Below are positions 57,111 to 64,000 of a DNA stretch of 64,000 bases, piece after piece. Below the pieces are notes generated by a model that searched no databases, was not told the origin of the DNA, and saw only the letters and a list, made by a program, of their open reading frames with translations. The translations under genes and the position numbers were made by a program. This DNA comes from Mycobacterium sp. ITM-2016-00316 (GTDB lineage: Bacteria; Actinomycetota; Actinomycetes; Mycobacteriales; Mycobacteriaceae). How positions within the stretch are numbered: the stretch's first letter is position 1; each line of letters opens with the position of its first letter. Location of the stretch: assembly GCF_002968335.2 (NCBI RefSeq), contig NZ_CP134398.1:5704001-5768000 (forward strand). Direction: 5' to 3'.

Positions 57111-57158
57111 ACGGGGACGGCGCCACCACGTCTCGGCGCCCCAGAACATGTCAGTCTG

Positions 57159-57174
57159 TCGCACTAGTGTTCGA
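57159..57174. promoter_or_regulatory. LexA (SOS) box before the HNH gene
   Basis: TCGCACTAGTGTTCGA differs at one position from the mycobacterial/Bacillus-type LexA consensus TCGAAC-N4-GTTCGA. It ends 3 bp before the ATG of the DUF222/HNH gene. Members of the 13E12 family in mycobacteria are known to be DNA-damage-inducible and carry such boxes. Confidence 0.6.
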
Positions 57175-57177
57175 ATC

Positions 57178-58361
57178 ATGGTGGACGAAGAACTGGCATA
57201 CGAAGAAGAGGAACGTCGCGCGGCCCTGGCGGTCGACAATATCGGCGCCGAAGCCCGCGAGGAAAACGCCTGCGGAGCCCGCCGGTTGTTCGCGATCGGC
57301 CAACTCTACGAGGCGCGCGCTCCGGACGACGACACCGAGAAGCTGTGCTGGGCCATCGACGGGCACACCAGCCTGGTGGCTGAAGTCGCCACCGCACTGG
57401 GGGTAAGCCGCTGTCGGGCCGCCGCTCAGGTCAAGATGGCAATCGCTCTGTATACGAAGCTCCCACGGGTCCTGCGCACCGCGAAGAGCGGCTGGTTGGA
57501 CTACCGCATGCTCGCAGCCATCGTGTGGCGCACCGAGCTGATCGTCGATGGGGACGTGCTGGAACGTGTCGATGACCGGTTGGCCGAGAGAGCGCCGAAA
57601 TGGGCACGGCTGTCCGAACCGAAGATCGAGGCCCGGATCAACGCCGTCATCGCCGCGCAAGATCCCGAAGCGGTGCGCATCCGCGAACAGATCCGTCGCG
57701 ACCGCGAGGTCGGGGGGTGCACCTCATCGCCGACCGTGCCGGCACCACCGCCCTGACGGGCAGCCTCGACCAGATCGACGCCGAAGCCCTCGCGGCCGCC
57801 GTCGAACACGCCACTGTGCGCGAGGTCGACCCCGGTCCCGTCACCGTGGAGCAGGGCCGATTCCCGTCCGCCAAGCTCGCCGAATTCATCCGCTCCCGCG
57901 ATCTCACCTGCCGCTTCCCCGGCTGCGACGTCCCGGCCTGGGACACCGATATCGACCACACCGTGGCCTGGCCCGCCGGTCCCACCCATCCGTCGAACCT
58001 CAAATGCCTATGCCGAACGCATCATCTTCTGAAGACGTTCTTCGACGGCTGGAACGACGTGCAGCTGGCCAACGGCACCGTCGTATGGACCTCGCCGACC
58101 GGTCATGTGTACACCACCGAACCCGAAGGCGCACAATGGTTCGCCGGTCTCGGAGACCCCACCGGCGAACCCACCCTGCAGGCTATCGTGCCGACCCTCG
58201 CCCAACGGTGCATGAAGATGCCCGCCCGCGAACGGCCGCGCCACGAGGACACCCGCCGACGCGTCACCGCCGAGCGCCACGCCAACCATCGACGTCTGCA
58301 CCAACAAGAACAGGACCACCAGGCCTGGCTCGCCGCCCACGACGAACCCGCACCCTTCTAA
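57178..58361 (+). pseudogene. DUF222/HNH (13E12-family) gene with a frameshift
   Basis: Two frames together encode one 13E12-type HNH protein of about 394 aa. The first (57178-57756) holds the DUF222 N-terminal part and runs off-family after REQIRRDREV; the second supplies VHLIADRAGTTALTGSLDQI onward, ending in the HNH nuclease domain (CRFPGCD, DIDHTVAW, NLKCLCRTHHLLKTF). The switch falls at a run of six G (57712-57717); one more G restores the frame. A true inactivating mutation, a sequencing error or programmed -1 slippage are all possible. The HNH residues themselves are intact. Confidence 0.8.
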
Positions 58362-59209
58362 ACGATGGGTTCGTCCCCGAGCACCGTGGTGCGCAACATC
58401 TCTCGGGGGGAGTTCGGCTCGTACGGCGCGGCACGGTGCAGCACGCCCTGGTTGTCCCAGATCACCGTGTCGCCCACCGACCATTTGTGGCTGTACACCT
58501 TGTCGGGCGTCGTGGAATGCTCCAGCAACTCGGTGAGCAGCGCGCGGCCCTCATCGCGATCCATGCCCACGATGTAGTCCGCGGACGCGCCGAGCACCAG
58601 TGACTTACGGCCGCTGCGGTGCGTCCAGATCAACGGATTCTCGTGTGTGGGGCGAGATTTCCACCGCTGCACCTGCTCCGGCGTGGGATCGGGATACACC
58701 CGGCGCTGCGAGGCCTCCAGGGAATGCACGACACGCAGCGCGGCGTACCGCTCCTTCTCGCCGTCGCTGAGCGTCTCGTAGGCAGCATAGGAGTTCGCGA
58801 ATTCCGTCTCCCCGCCGCGGGCGGCAACCTGGATAGCCGACAGCACCGTGGCCTTCTGCGGGCACTCACCGGCTGTCGGCGTGCACCCGTCGATATGCCA
58901 ATCGAAGGTCGCCTTCAGGTACTCGGCCGCCTTGTTCTTGCTCTTGTCCAGCGTGATCGGATAGATGCCCGACACCGGGTGATGGCCATCTGCGGTCCGG
59001 TCGATCTCGCCGAGGCGCTCGCAGAACGCCACCTGCGCCTGCGGATCCTCGTCGAGATGCAGATTGTGGAAGACCAAGACCCCGTTGTCCTCCAACGCAT
59101 CCAGCACCGCCGATGCCAGACCGTCATCGGTGGCCAACCGATCCGGGTCGACACCGCTTACTTCGGCTCCCACCGAAGCGGTGAGCTTGTTGATGGTGAG
59201 CACACTCAT
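58358..59209 (-). CDS. TauD/TfdA-family Fe(II)/2-oxoglutarate dioxygenase
   Basis: A 283-residue oxygenase. FDWHIDG gives the H-x-D iron ligands (about residues 102-104) and NQGVLHRAAPYEP the distal His; the Arg near RTTVL binds 2-oxoglutarate. TauD relatives hydroxylate sulfonates, sulfate esters, aryloxy acids or quaternary amines. It is the last gene of the oxygenase operon. Its TAG stop overlaps the HNH gene TAA stop on the other strand. Substrate unknown. Confidence 0.9.
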   Translation of the reverse strand: MSVLTINKLTASVGAEVSGVDPDRLATDDGLASAVLDALEDNGVLVFHNLHLDEDPQAQVAFCERLGEIDRTADGHHPVSGIYPITLDKSKNKAAEYLKATFDWHIDGCTPTAGECPQKATVLSAIQVAARGGETEFANSYAAYETLSDGEKERYAALRVVHSLEASQRRVYPDPTPEQVQRWKSRPTHENPLIWTHRSGRKSLVLGASADYIVGMDRDEGRALLTELLEHSTTPDKVYSHKWSVGDTVIWDNQGVLHRAAPYEPNSPREMLRTTVLGDEPIV

Positions 59210-59222
59210 GGTGCGTCCTCTC

Positions 59223-59558
59223 TCAGGGTGTGGGTTCGCCGGTGCGGATCATCACCGCGTCAGCGGCGTCCACAGGGGCGGGTTGGTGCATGATCTCGAT
59301 CGCCATGGCAACCATCACCAGGGAGTAGATGAGGTGCAGCAGATTGGTCGCATCCTCGGGCAGATCGTCGAGGGGGAACTTGTCGCAGTAGTCGATGGCC
59401 TCTTCCAGTCGCGGGAAGAACGCATCGTAGAACTCCTGCATCGTCGGCATGGAGCTCGACAGCCGCTGCTCCCAACGCTCCGTCTCGGTTGCCAGACACC
59501 AGGTTTCGGTGAAGGGTTCCAGCTCTTCGAATTGGGCCGGTAGCTGCTTGTTCGCCAT
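59223..59558 (-). CDS. hypothetical protein in oxygenase operon
   Basis: A 111-residue helical, acidic protein (EELEPFTETWCLATETERWEQRL and FFPRLEEAIDYCDKF) with a hydrophobic segment (LLHLIYSLVMVAMAIEIM). It begins 2 bp after the Rieske oxygenase stop and 13 bp before the TauD gene, so it is surely part of the operon. It is not a classical ring-hydroxylase beta subunit (those are about 180 aa with an NTF2 fold). It may assist oxygenase assembly or be a small effector protein. Confidence 0.8.
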   Translation of the reverse strand: MANKQLPAQFEELEPFTETWCLATETERWEQRLSSSMPTMQEFYDAFFPRLEEAIDYCDKFPLDDLPEDATNLLHLIYSLVMVAMAIEIMHQPAPVDAADAVMIRTGEPTP

Positions 59559-59560
59559 GG

Positions 59561-60805
59561 TCAGACCCTCGCCGGCTCGGAGTCGCGCTGGTACCGCTCG
59601 ACCCAGTCAACGGCCACCTTGTGCAGGTGGCGAACCAGAATCTCCTGATCGTTGACCGGGAACTCATCGATGACGTCGTACTCCAACGCCGCCTGGGTCC
59701 CGCCCAGCATGCCCGCATCCTGCAGCGCGAACTCCTTGAGCACCACCGCGGCGACTTCGTGCTCGATGCGTTCGCGCACCGACCGCGCCGGGTGGAAATA
59801 GGTGAAGGCCTCGAAGCGGTGGGTGTTGTGCGAGGTCGGCCAGTACCGGTAGAGCAGGTACCAGCCGCCATAGATCAGGATCTCCAGGTTGGGGAAGATC
59901 TGAAAATTGCTGATGCCCCAGGGTTGGATACCACCGGGATTGAGGCCGGCGGGTAGCTCGCCGATATCCGGTGTGCGCCAAGGCCCCACCAATCCGCTCT
60001 GGGTGGCCCGCTCGATCGGGTACATGTACTCGTCGGCGAGCAGCCAGCGCCGCGTCCCGGCCGTGGAGACCAGTCGGTGCGGTCCGTCGAGTTGGAAGTG
60101 CCCGCAGGTGAAGCCGGCACTGGGATTACGCACTTCGGCGGGAACCTGCTGGGTGTGCAGGGACGGCACGTGGTAGTACTCCTGGAAGGCGTCGGCGAAG
60201 ATCTTCCAGTTGCTGTTGTTGTGGGCAACCCATTCGTAGGTCTCGGTCAGCTTCCCGAAGGGGTAGTCGTCAAGCCCGGTGACCATGGGGCCCAAAAACT
60301 CCCGCAGGCTCTGCCGGGGTTCGACATCCAGATTGACGAAGATGAATCCGGCCCACACGTCGCAGTGCACCTTGAGCAGTCCGTAGTCCTCGGTGTCGAA
60401 GTCGACGAACGCCTCGGGGTTGGGTACGTGCACCAGGGTGCCGTCCAGGGAGTATCGCCAACCGCACTGCGCGCAGATCAATTCCGTGCTCTGACCGGAC
60501 TTTTCACCGACCAGCCGGTTGCCCCGATGCCGGCATACGTTGTGGAAGGCCCGCACCGTGTCATCCTCGCCGCGCACCAGGATCAGCGACGCGTTGACGA
60601 CCTCGATCTCCTTGGCGAGGAAACTGCCCGCCCGCGGCAGCTCTTCGACGCGGGCCAGGTTCAGCCAGGCCCGTTTGAAGACGGCTTCCTTCTCCAGCTC
60701 GTAGAACTCGGGCGACGTGGAGTCCCTGAACGATATCGGTCCGGTCCCGAGTTCCGGGTAGTGCTCGGTCCAGGATCCTTCAACCGGTTTCGGCCATTGC
60801 GTCAT
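59561..60805 (-). CDS. Rieske non-heme iron oxygenase alpha subunit with altered cluster ligand
   Basis: A 414-residue ring-hydroxylase-type oxygenase. The Rieske motif reads C91-R-H93, 17 residues, then C111-A-Q-C114-GW; the canonical second His (CxxH) is Cys, confirmed as TGC in the DNA. The catalytic domain is intact: FADAFQEYYHVPSLH holds Asp205, His212 and His217, and a C-terminal Asp-rich stretch (EYDVIDEFPVND) the third ligand. GGAGGAG precedes the ATG. The operon supplies a reductase and an SDR. The substrate is unknown; the cluster would have three Cys and one His. Confidence 0.9.
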   Translation of the reverse strand: MTQWPKPVEGSWTEHYPELGTGPISFRDSTSPEFYELEKEAVFKRAWLNLARVEELPRAGSFLAKEIEVVNASLILVRGEDDTVRAFHNVCRHRGNRLVGEKSGQSTELICAQCGWRYSLDGTLVHVPNPEAFVDFDTEDYGLLKVHCDVWAGFIFVNLDVEPRQSLREFLGPMVTGLDDYPFGKLTETYEWVAHNNSNWKIFADAFQEYYHVPSLHTQQVPAEVRNPSAGFTCGHFQLDGPHRLVSTAGTRRWLLADEYMYPIERATQSGLVGPWRTPDIGELPAGLNPGGIQPWGISNFQIFPNLEILIYGGWYLLYRYWPTSHNTHRFEAFTYFHPARSVRERIEHEVAAVVLKEFALQDAGMLGGTQAALEYDVIDEFPVNDQEILVRHLHKVAVDWVERYQRDSEPARV

Positions 60806-60821: not shown

Positions 60822-61565
60822 TCACATCACTGCTCCACCGTTGACACCGAGCGTCTGGCCGGTGATGAACTTGGCCTCCTCGGAGCACAGGAAGGCCACC
60901 GCCGCGGCGATATCGTCCCCGGTGCCGAGGTGGCCGACCGGGATGTTCGCCGCGATCTCCTCGTTGCTCTTGAGGTATCCGGCGGCCTGACCCGCATGCT
61001 GCATGGGGGTTTCGATGCCCGAAGGGGGGATGTTGTTGACCGTGATGCCGCGGGCTGCGTACTCGCGGGCCAACGACTTGGTCAGCGTCAGCAGCGCGCC
61101 CTTCGAGGCCGCATAGTGAGCGGCGAACGGCGAACCCCGCTGTGCGCTCGACGACGAGATCATCACGATGCGACCCCAGCTGGCCGCCACCATGTCCGGC
61201 AGCGCGGCCTGACAACAGTGGAACGTGCCGGTGAGGTTCACCTCGATGATCCGCGTCCACGAATCGGCAGTGATCTCCTCGAACGGCGCAAATCCGAACA
61301 GCCCCGCACTGGTGACCAGGATCTCGATCGGGCCCAGTTCACTGCGGATCTTGGCGTAGGCGTCGTCGACGGCGGCCCGGTCGGAGACGTCACCGGCCAC
61401 GGCCACCGCGGTGATTCCCTCGGCACGCAGCTCTTCGGTGACACGTTGGGCCGCTCGCGCATTCACATCGAAGACGGCGACCTGGTGGCCGCGCCTGCCC
61501 AGCTCGTGACAGGTGGCCTCACCCATCCCGGATGCTCCGCCGGTCACCACTGCAACGCGACTCAT
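60822..61565 (-). CDS. SDR in oxygenase operon
   Basis: A 247-residue FabG-like SDR. TGGASGMG binds NAD(P), SAG replaces NAG, Ser in SSSSAQRGS and YAASK complete the site, and the C-terminus is GQTLGVNGGAVM. AGGAGG precedes its ATG. It sits 16 bp before the Rieske oxygenase start and 15 bp after the reductase stop, so it likely oxidises a dihydrodiol or hydroxylated product, or supplies its precursor. Confidence 0.9.
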   Translation of the reverse strand: MSRVAVVTGGASGMGEATCHELGRRGHQVAVFDVNARAAQRVTEELRAEGITAVAVAGDVSDRAAVDDAYAKIRSELGPIEILVTSAGLFGFAPFEEITADSWTRIIEVNLTGTFHCCQAALPDMVAASWGRIVMISSSSAQRGSPFAAHYAASKGALLTLTKSLAREYAARGITVNNIPPSGIETPMQHAGQAAGYLKSNEEIAANIPVGHLGTGDDIAAAVAFLCSEEAKFITGQTLGVNGGAVM

Positions 61566-61580
61566 CGCATCCTCCTGTTG

Positions 61581-62627
61581 TCACTCATAGACGAACCGAA
61601 TGGTCGGACTGGTGGGGATCGCCTGGCAGGTGACCACCAGACCCTCGGCGACTTCGTCCTCGTCGAGGGCATCGTTGTTCAGCAGCCGGGCCTCGCCCTC
61701 GGTCACCTGCGCGATACACGTCCCGCACGAACCTGTTTCGCAGGATGAGGGCGCCTTGAGTCCGGCCATCCGGGCCATCTGCAACAAGGTGTGCCCGGCG
61801 CGATAGTCCACGGTGACCGTTTCCCGGTCCAGTTCGATCGTCACGGTCTCGGTCACCGGGGCGCCGGGCGACGCGGTCGGTACCGGCGCCACAGTGAAAC
61901 GCTCCAGATGCACCTGCTCCGCCGGGACGCCGGCGGCCAGCAGTGCCTGCTCGACGGTATCCATGAAGGGGCCAGGGCCGCAGATGAAACAGTCCGCGTC
62001 GGTGCCGGTCTCGGCGATGAAGGCGGCGATCTTGTCCGCGGTCACCACACCCTGCTCGACGTCGAGGTGGTGCTGAAGTCCGAAGCGGTCACCGTGCTCG
62101 TCGACGAGGCCGTCGAGGGCCTCCCGGAAGATGACCGACTTCACCTCACGATTGGCGTACAACAACCGCGCCCGGCCGGCGGACTCCGCCAACTCGGTCT
62201 GAATCAGCGAGAACACCGGCGTGATACCGCTTCCGCCGGCGAACGCCACCAGCTCACGCCCGTTGCCGGAGCGGACGAAGCGACCTTCGGGTGCCGCGAC
62301 ACTGATCCGATCTCCCGGTGAGGCATGGTCATTGAGCCAGTTGGACACCACACCGTCACGGTCACGCTTGACCGTGACCCGAAGATCCTGGTGCTTCACC
62401 GGTGAGGACGACATGGAATAGCAGCGGCGGTACTCCTGCCCGCCCACCTCGACGCGGAGCGCGAGGTACTGCCCGGCGCGATAGGCGAAGTGCTCGGCCA
62501 GCTGTGGGGGTACATCGAAGACGATCGAGATCGCATCGTCGGTCTCCCGCACCACCTCCTTGACCCGCAGCGACGTGAAACCGTCCGCGTCAGCGGTCTC
62601 GGCGGCAGCTTCGGTCGGGGAGATCAT
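61581..62627 (-). CDS. ferredoxin reductase with C-terminal [2Fe-2S] domain
   Basis: A 348-residue electron-transfer protein of the KshB/PaaE/HmpX order: FAD domain (YRRCYSMSSSP, near residue 65), NAD(P) domain (FAGGSGITPVFSLIQ, CGPGPFMDTV) and plant-type ferredoxin (CETGSCGTC and a later Cys in VVTCQA). It would donate electrons to the Rieske oxygenase encoded two genes on. Its leader has the MarR-type palindrome. Starts at ATG 62627. Confidence 0.92.
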   Translation of the reverse strand: MISPTEAAAETADADGFTSLRVKEVVRETDDAISIVFDVPPQLAEHFAYRAGQYLALRVEVGGQEYRRCYSMSSSPVKHQDLRVTVKRDRDGVVSNWLNDHASPGDRISVAAPEGRFVRSGNGRELVAFAGGSGITPVFSLIQTELAESAGRARLLYANREVKSVIFREALDGLVDEHGDRFGLQHHLDVEQGVVTADKIAAFIAETGTDADCFICGPGPFMDTVEQALLAAGVPAEQVHLERFTVAPVPTASPGAPVTETVTIELDRETVTVDYRAGHTLLQMARMAGLKAPSSCETGSCGTCIAQVTEGEARLLNNDALDEDEVAEGLVVTCQAIPTSPTIRFVYE

Positions 62628-62641
62628 CCCGACCAGGTTAT

Positions 62642-62671
62642 CAAGTACTTGTCATAGATCTCAAGTACTAG
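62642..62671. promoter_or_regulatory. two MarR-type operator sites
   Basis: CAAGTACTTG (62642-62651) is a perfect 10-bp palindrome and CAAGTACTAG (62662-62671) a near copy, spaced 20 bp so that both lie on the same DNA face. The second overlaps the marR stop. They precede the ferredoxin reductase gene by 15 bp and likely bind the MarR protein. Confidence 0.65.
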
Positions 62672-63132
62672 ACATCGGGATCGACGTGATCGGCGTACAG
62701 GGTGTGACCGGTGCCCTGCTCCACCACTTTCCCGAGTAGCGCACGCAGCTGTTCCTGCTCCTCGCGGTTGAGCACGCCGAACACCTTGTCGTGCGCCTCG
62801 ACGGCGTCGCTGACCACCGCCGCGGCGACCGCACGCCCCTCATCGGACAGGAACACCTGCAGGATGCGACCGTGTTGGGGATCCTGCTTGCGCTCCACGA
62901 GGCCGCGCTTCTCCAGAGCGGTGAGCGCCAGCTGCACGCCCTGCGGGGTGATCAAGAGCCGGCGCGCGAGTTCGGCCCCCGACAGGCCGGGCTGGTTGGT
63001 GAGCTGACGCAGCACGCCGATCTGCGCAGTGCTGACACCGTGCGGCTTGACCGCGTCGTTCACGGAGGTGAGCGAGAAGTAGAAGGCCTGCTTGAGCAGC
63101 CAAAGGATGTTGTCGGTGAGTTCGATGCTCAT
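62668..63132 (-). CDS. MarR-family regulator
   Basis: A 154-residue regulator. The winged helix includes LSGAELARRLLITPQGVQLALTALEKRGLVERKQDPQHGRILQVFL, with the wing Arg. MarR proteins release DNA on binding aromatic ligands. It is placed between the amidohydrolase and reductase genes, with two palindromic sites at its 3' end. ATG 63132 gives the usual family length; a longer open frame upstream is antisense or overlaps the amidohydrolase. The inducer is likely the pathway substrate. Confidence 0.92.
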   Translation of the reverse strand: MSIELTDNILWLLKQAFYFSLTSVNDAVKPHGVSTAQIGVLRQLTNQPGLSGAELARRLLITPQGVQLALTALEKRGLVERKQDPQHGRILQVFLSDEGRAVAAAVVSDAVEAHDKVFGVLNREEQEQLRALLGKVVEQGTGHTLYADHVDPDV

Positions 63133-63158: not shown

Positions 63159-64000
63159 CTAGCTCCGGACCACCACACCGTCCTTCATGACGAACCGGAC
63201 GTCCAGCGTGGCCGCGATATCCCGGGACACGTCGCCCGGTACCGCGATGATATCGGCCAGGTAGCCCGCGGCGAGCCGTCCCAGTTCGTGCTCGGCGTCG
63301 ATGAGTTCGGCGCTGACCACGGTCGCCGCCCTGATCGCCTGCATCGGGGTCATGCCGCGTTCCACCAGCGCACCGAGTTCCTTGGCATTCTGACCGTGCG
63401 GGATCGCCGGCGCGTCGGTGCCGCACGCGATGCGCACCCCGGCGGCGATCGCCTTGGGCAGCATCGCCTTCGCCTGCGGGAACACCTCAAGGGCCTTCTT
63501 GCGCAACTCCGGCGCGATGCGGTCGATCGCCATCGCGTCGGTGAGGTAGGTCGTCGACACCAGAAAAGTCCCGTGGTCGACCATCATCTGGATCGTCTCG
63601 TCGCTGGCGAGGAACCCGTGTTCGATACAGTCGATGCCGGCGCGGATACACGCCTGAATTGCTTTGTCGCCCACCGCATGCGCGGCCACTCGGACACCGG
63701 CTCGGTGTGCCTCGTCCGCGATGGCTTCGAACTCGGCATCCGAGTACTGTTGCGCACCCGGCGATGTGCTGTGCGACATCACCCCACCGGAGGCGGACAC
63801 CTTGATCAGCTTTGCGCCGTGCCTGATCTGGTAGCGCACGCAGGCGATGACGTCCGGCACGCCGTTGGCGATGCCCTCGGCCACCGACAGCGGCATCACA
63901 CCCGGCGCGAGTCGCTGAAACACGGTCGGATCGAGGTGCCCGCCATAGGGTGTGACGGCATGTCCGGCCGGCCAGATGCGCGGGCCGGGGTGCCAGCCCT
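63159..64000 (-). CDS. metal-dependent amidohydrolase, N-terminus beyond the window
   Basis: C-terminal 280 residues of an imidazolonepropionase/prolidase-like amidohydrolase. IWPAGHAVTPYGGH near the visible start, KLIKVSASGGV with the carboxylated-Lys segment, HAVGDKAI and CIEHGF hold metal-binding residues, and CGTDAP the final catalytic Asp. The C-terminal GRLAAGYLADIIAVPGD is typical. It heads or belongs to the MarR/oxygenase operon (26 bp before marR) and may hydrolyse an amide or lactam substrate. The frame is open to the window edge. Confidence 0.88.
   Translation of the reverse strand, partial: GWHPGPRIWPAGHAVTPYGGHLDPTVFQRLAPGVMPLSVAEGIANGVPDVIACVRYQIRHGAKLIKVSASGGVMSHSTSPGAQQYSDAEFEAIADEAHRAGVRVAAHAVGDKAIQACIRAGIDCIEHGFLASDETIQMMVDHGTFLVSTTYLTDAMAIDRIAPELRKKALEVFPQAKAMLPKAIAAGVRIACGTDAPAIPHGQNAKELGALVERGMTPMQAIRAATVVSAELIDAEHELGRLAAGYLADIIAVPGDVSRDIAATLDVRFVMKDGVVVRS

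Follow-up and report, generated by a model that had tools for sequence, protein, structure and literature searches.

The 64,000-nucleotide stretch of the Mycobacterium sp. ITM-2016-00316 genome analysed here (contig NZ_CP134398.1, positions 5,704,001 to 5,768,000; hereafter the window) encodes an alpha-type Rieske oxygenase protein, here called A', whose cluster ligands are altered. Its Rieske loops read C91-x-H93, 17 residues, C111-x-x-C114 (motif CRHRG...CAQCGW), confirming the statement of a first-pass annotation, made from the sequence alone, that a cysteine stands at the position of the second cluster histidine with otherwise canonical spacing. The gene and its key residues, in window positions, are the following.

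59561..60805, minus strand: A', ATG start, 414 amino acids, from the open reading frame listing and profiles
60533..60535, minus strand: Cys91, first cluster ligand, Cys in all 148 listed homologs
60527..60529, minus strand: His93, second ligand, replaced by R, Q, G or K in several lineages
60473..60475, minus strand: Cys111, third ligand, from the sequence and the homolog alignment
60464..60466, minus strand: Cys114 (codon TGC), where a histidine would normally touch the bridging carboxylate of the neighbouring subunit (role of the histidine from PMC5033481)
60179..60181, minus strand: Glu209, aligned by phmmer with the bridging Glu205 of CntA
60170..60172, minus strand: His212, mononuclear iron ligand, aligned with CntA His208
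60155..60157, minus strand: His217, mononuclear iron ligand, aligned with CntA His213
59717..59719, minus strand: Asp363, presumed third iron ligand, assigned by motif and lying outside the phmmer alignment

A' scored above cut-off with the Pfam profiles Rieske (50.3 bits, cut-off 20.3) and Ring_hydroxyl_A (165.8 bits), and far under the 670-bit cut-off of the NCBIfam GbcA profile (124.5 bits). The CxH...CxxH signature of Rieske oxygenase alpha subunits is broken in A' (C91, H93, C111, C114), and the 2-His-1-carboxylate site with its bridging carboxylate is present (H212, H217, D363 and E209, with D363 placed by motif), in agreement with the earlier remark that the catalytic His/His/Asp set is intact. 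Judged by its sequence, A' is a Rieske oxygenase alpha homolog that departs from the four-ligand signature.

The first-pass annotation had allowed that Cys114 might be a lone mutation, in which case close homologs should have histidine. A homolog search with A', in which 8000 candidates were scored, gave 3293 proteins at E <= 1e-30, and the best 120 were listed. In the 44 best listed matches (P0001-P0044) position 114 is Cys or Ser and never His (P0043 has an adjacent alignment gap), and the orthologs from Mycolicibacterium sp. P9-22 and M. frederiksbergense LB 501T (95-96% identity) share the CRH..CAQC arrangement of A'. A lone mutation or a sequencing error was therefore rejected, since the change is inherited among these orthologs, the wider homologs and the loci described below. 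The first listed match with His at this position is P0045, 79% identical to A', and among canonical A' proteins the closest one observed, in G051, has 82% identity, so that canonical and altered forms overlap in overall identity.

Together with 28 further proteins retrieved with a four-Cys query, the best 120 of the 3293 form a set of 148 homologs, of which 99 have an altered ligand set. Besides 49 canonical CxH/CxxH proteins there are 37 with CxH/CxxC, 32 with four Cys (CPxC/CxRC), 14 with CxR/CxxC and 16 of nine rarer kinds; these counts represent the top of much longer lists and one four-Cys query, and are not frequencies. E209, H212, H217 and D363 are retained in all 148. One of the 49 canonical proteins, P0268 of Nocardia callitridis, has a first loop one residue shorter (CPHG ... 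CRCH).

The genus was surveyed in 248 genomes, and all 136 listed loci at least 70% identical over nearly the whole of A' were taken. Canonical ligands were found in 105 of them, CxR/CxxC in 14, four Cys in nine, CxH/CxxC in seven and CxH/CxxS in one. The catalytic set is complete in 135 of the 136 loci, including 31/31 altered ones, the exception being the canonical G045, where a stop interrupts the gene and the pieces were read separately. Among 80 named loci, partly from the same assemblies, 23 are altered, including those of M. frederiksbergense, M. neoaurum, M. aurum, M. wolinskyi, M. septicum, M. porcinum and Aldersonia, and the catalytic set is present in all 80. The original observation is thus confirmed and wider than noted, and the pattern points to a lost electron-donor role in one of two paired subunits.

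The most altered forms, with a rubredoxin-like CPxC ... CxxC set (nine of the 136 genus loci and 32 of the 148 homologs), occur in relatives outside the window, and the species-named ones belong mainly to Mycolicibacter. Database annotation tracks their loss of Rieske ligands: for those among the 148 homologs the precomputed Pfam column lists no Rieske domain, and the named ones are mostly called 'SRPBCC family protein', some '(2Fe-2S)-binding protein'. A predicted model of one such protein (P0116), the sole relative modelled, has a predicted local distance difference test (pLDDT) score of 73, rising to about 90 in the Rieske part, and the 50 best structural matches shown are Rieske oxygenases with template modelling (TM) scores of 0.5-0.7. 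According to this model, with high confidence in that part, P0116 keeps the Rieske fold.

A' lies in a set of genes on the same strand whose other members within the window are as follows.

63159..64000, minus strand: amidohydrolase by profile; its open reading frame continues past the window end, with small1 and A beyond it, outside the window
62668..63093, minus strand: MarR-family regulator by profile, start chosen inside a longer open reading frame
61581..62627, minus strand: Red, a PaaE-like reductase by profiles (FAD, NAD and C-terminal plant-type [2Fe-2S] domains), with no Rieske domain
60822..61565, minus strand: short-chain dehydrogenase/reductase (SDR) by profile
59223..59558, minus strand: small2, 111 amino acids, four-helix, of no known family, 2 bases after A'; its paralog small1 follows A
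58358..59209, minus strand: TauD/TfdA-family dioxygenase by profile, final gene of the conserved order

Partner A is a canonical Rieske oxygenase, 55% identical to A', encoded at 5768719-5769978 of the same genome, roughly 4 kb from A' and a short way beyond the end of the window. Because this canonical A is in the same operon, the reductase need not be dedicated to A', as had first been proposed. The order A, small1, amidohydrolase, MarR, Red, SDR, A', small2, TauD is whole in 117 of the 136 genus loci and lacks Red in 13; in the remaining six a contig ends within 4 kb upstream of A', and the order is kept as far as the contig reaches. A accompanies A' in 130 of the 136 loci, the other six being these contig-end cases. 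Among the 31 altered loci A is on the contig in 30, one being cut by a contig end, and is canonical in 30/30; over the whole survey it is canonical in 128/128 loci with the loops covered (A is cut by the stretch edge in L124 and L130). A general tolerance of ligand loss in this gene pair was rejected on that count.

Two loci outside the 136 bear on the pairing. In G267, which belongs to a different genus of the family, A and A' are close neighbours separated by small2 and TauD; both are canonical and each has a small protein after it, which argues that the A/A' pairing is older than the ligand loss. In G217 (L264), a decaying operon, A was not found and A' is frame-disrupted, in support of the pairing. 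In G103 and G198, also outside the 136, A' appears split between contigs.

The two domains of A' are under different constraint. For pairs whose catalytic parts differ by 4-25%, with ligand positions excluded and pairs not independent, the ratio of Rieske to catalytic divergence is 4.0 in altered A' and 1.6 in canonical A', against 0.94 and 0.96 in A from the same two genome sets; the loops of altered A' diverge 4.96 times as much as the catalytic part. Ratios of nonsynonymous to synonymous substitution (dN/dS) were obtained by Nei-Gojobori codon comparison in five hand-picked genome groups. The Rieske/catalytic values in the three altered A' groups are 0.17/0.02 (own group, three genomes, 3 pairs), 0.16/0.04 and 0.27/0.07, and in the two canonical A' groups 0.04/0.03 and 0.09/0.05. 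The corresponding values for A in the same five groups are 0.03/0.03 (own group), 0.09/0.04, 0.09/0.06, 0.05/0.04 and 0.06/0.07, its Rieske part reaching 0.09 in the two other altered groups, above the 0.03-0.06 found elsewhere. The Rieske domain of A', but not that of A, is relaxed; it is still constrained, and the gene is not decaying. A pseudogene was rejected for this copy by its catalytic dN/dS of 0.02, and this strong purifying selection, together with the conserved operon with its reductase and MarR regulator, supports the earlier suggestion that A' is functional.

In a quickly built tree of 137 A' and five A rows, with the ligand loops excluded, the altered rows fall into clades of 69 and 16 (Shimodaira-Hasegawa-like approximate likelihood ratio test, SH-aLRT, 99 and 98), plus one CxxN row (P0072), and the four-Cys rows form a single clade (SH-aLRT 96). 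A single clade of the 85 altered rows was not rejected (approximately unbiased, AU, test p 0.795), and the likelihood was better with this constraint than without it; hence neither two separate origins nor convergence is claimed. His96 is present in 27/27 tree rows that lack H93 and keep C111 and C114 (four-Cys rows excluded), in 10 of the 39 such rows with H93 and in none of the 51 canonical rows. It is a possible replacement ligand where H93 was lost, a lead from too few independent events, since H93 needs only about four changes on the tree and the sign test for His96 is without power. With His96 included, a set of four thiol or imidazole residues is retained in 75 of the 85 altered rows and not in the other 10.

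Two of the naturally occurring ligand sets, CxH/CxxC and CPxC/CxRC, occupy the same positions as variants engineered in the archaeal Rieske ferredoxin (ARF) of Sulfolobus solfataricus. There, the His64-to-Cys change produced a low-potential 3-Cys/1-His [2Fe-2S] cluster, the His44-to-Cys change was unsuccessful, and the combination H44I/K45C/H64C (CxxC/CxxC) gave a rubredoxin-like mononuclear site (review PMC2946596). By this analogy the present copy of A' could still hold a cluster, a single Zn or Fe is more likely in the four-Cys forms, and CxH/SxxS and similar forms perhaps bind nothing. The engineered proteins are laboratory ferredoxin variants, whereas comparable states are natural in the oxygenase subunit A'.

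Normal Rieske oxygenase subunits have one Rieske cluster and one active site each. In CntA the two centres are 44 Å apart within a subunit and 12 Å between subunits, which is why in these enzymes electrons for the mononuclear iron come from the Rieske cluster of the neighbouring subunit (PMC7948474, PMC12445004), and mutants of the bridging Glu are all inactive (PMC7948474). In carbazole dioxygenase the Rieske His93 contacts the bridging carboxylate, the other Rieske histidine being His71 (PMC5033481). Going by motif order, Cys114 of A' is the counterpart of this His93, the CxxH histidine. The change would thus strike the donor function of the A' Rieske domain at the electron-handover residue; the active site of A', with its receiver function, is strictly conserved.

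From these comparisons we infer that A' may be the electron-receiving member of an oxygenase alpha-subunit pair. A, with its normal Rieske cluster, would accept electrons from the reductase and, in a mixed head-to-tail ring, pass them from that cluster to the mononuclear iron of A' by way of its Glu209. A' would have no need of its own Rieske cluster for its chemistry, since that cluster would serve the next subunit only, and this role would have been given up. The electron-transfer-contact histidine may have become Cys first, as in this copy, with other ligands drifting later; most altered lineages would have kept a four-residue thiol/imidazole set, probably binding structural Zn or Fe, that is gone in some. 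Our preferred reading, held with moderate confidence, is that A' gave up electron delivery and is fed by A in a mixed complex, its old site eroding or becoming another metal site. In mycobacteria and close relatives, then, one of two paired oxygenases has an altered Rieske site and an intact oxygen-activating iron site, which suggests that the partner supplies electrons. That a natural path from Rieske to non-Rieske site mirrors the engineering (3-Cys/1-His, then four-Cys rubredoxin-like), inside a two-alpha oxygenase with divided labour and one subunit as pure receiver, is a plausible extension that we put forward tentatively. If true, it would be a natural counterpart to the engineered Rieske-to-rubredoxin conversion, and with the series of cluster-shedding subunits, electron transfer between subunits could be tested by comparing the numbers of clusters and active sites.

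Several points weigh against feeding of A' by A. The Rieske domain of canonical A' is already somewhat faster than that of A (1.6 vs 0.96), this copy of A' retains four plausible cluster ligands, and canonical A' in 105 of the 136 loci shows the loss to be optional. The co-occurrence of A and A' may reflect two enzymes of one pathway. NdmA/NdmB, the sole two-alpha oxygenase in the structure table of a review, is listed as alpha3alpha'3 (PMC12445004); if that stands for stacked homotrimers, an A' trimer would go unfed. A mixed trimer, for its part, would leave an A site donorless.

The first-pass proposal of a 3-Cys/1-His [2Fe-2S] cluster with a shifted, low potential in A' keeps its engineered precedent, the matching H64C change in the archaeal ferredoxin (PMC2946596), and the same four residues are present in A' and its 95-96% identical orthologs, so that it is possible for this copy. 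As an account of the whole clade it is not supported, because sister lineages go on to lose H93, C111 or C114 with the active site kept, or turn four-Cys, the Rieske domain is relaxed, with the loop divergence given above, and the residue changed is the very one that contacts the bridging carboxylate; we consider it unlikely. We find it similarly improbable that A' is fed by another protein, namely a ferredoxin, the reductase or a Rieske protein acting in trans. NdmC, an oxygenase without a Rieske cluster, is thought to work in this manner through the extra Rieske domain of NdmD, and the small protein after A' recalls NdmE, which accompanies NdmC (PMC4408171). However, profile searches of Red and the other scanned operon genes gave no Rieske domain, A holding the only intact site found there, and Red is absent from 9/9 four-Cys loci, though all nine genomes have a 44-46% identical reductase elsewhere.

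Pseudo-subunits are common in paired oligomers, and A' might have ceased to be an enzyme and serve A as a structural or regulatory subunit in which the pocket is conserved. The predicted Rieske fold of the modelled relative and some purifying selection on that domain (dN/dS 0.16-0.27) would fit, but conservation of the catalytic part is close to that seen in canonical A', and the iron ligands and bridging Glu are unchanged in 148/148 homologs, which makes this very unlikely in our view.

Like the alpha subunits CntA, Stc2, GbcA and TPADO, A' has the two-domain architecture, the 2-His-1-carboxylate site and the bridging Glu, and the modelled four-Cys relative is predicted to match their fold; it differs from them in its altered Rieske ligands and falls far short of the GbcA profile cut-off. 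The 7-methylxanthine demethylase NdmCDE resembles the A' system in that NdmC keeps the iron site without a Rieske cluster of its own and has an extra accessory protein (PMC4408171). In A', however, the Rieske domain remains with changed ligands, the operon reductase Red lacks the extra Rieske domain of the NdmC type, and small2, without a Pfam or NCBIfam match, is not recognisable as a glutathione S-transferase-like (GST-like) accessory protein such as NdmE. NdmA and NdmB are, like A and A' (together in 130 of 136 loci), two homologous alphas encoded together (PMC12445004, PMC4408171), but both keep their Rieske clusters (PMC4408171), whereas here A is canonical and A' altered. The literature searched, mostly without subscription papers, gave no description of a Rieske-free oxygenase subunit other than NdmC or of a subunit like A', and nothing on the substrate of A/A'.

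Red varies among the loci. It is absent in 13 of the 136, and in canonical-A' loci it is full in 64, partial in 37 and missing in 4; in two partial cases inspected (L040, L064) a separate open reading frame has only the C-terminal plant-type [2Fe-2S] domain. A match of at least 250 amino acids is present in 22/22 altered non-four-Cys loci. A link between altered ligands and Red loss was dropped as confounded by phylogeny. The other reductase of the four-Cys genomes shares a contig with A' in G022, G016, G073, G069, G130, G174, G101 and G225, at a distance of about 34-43 kb; in G086 it is on another contig.

A small protein of about 105-117 amino acids follows both A and A', with two copies in 130 of the 136 loci and three in one; small1 lies near 5768400 in the own genome. 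Comparison of the small2 family with PDB sequences and folds gave no notable match (best E 0.74 and 2.0), and the model of small2 (pLDDT 85, four helices) had no match at E 0.001 or better. Small1 and small2 may be a new kind of small oxygenase subunit. Two overlapping reading frames at window positions 57148-58361 look like one interrupted gene, which we take to be of the HNH/13E12 type.
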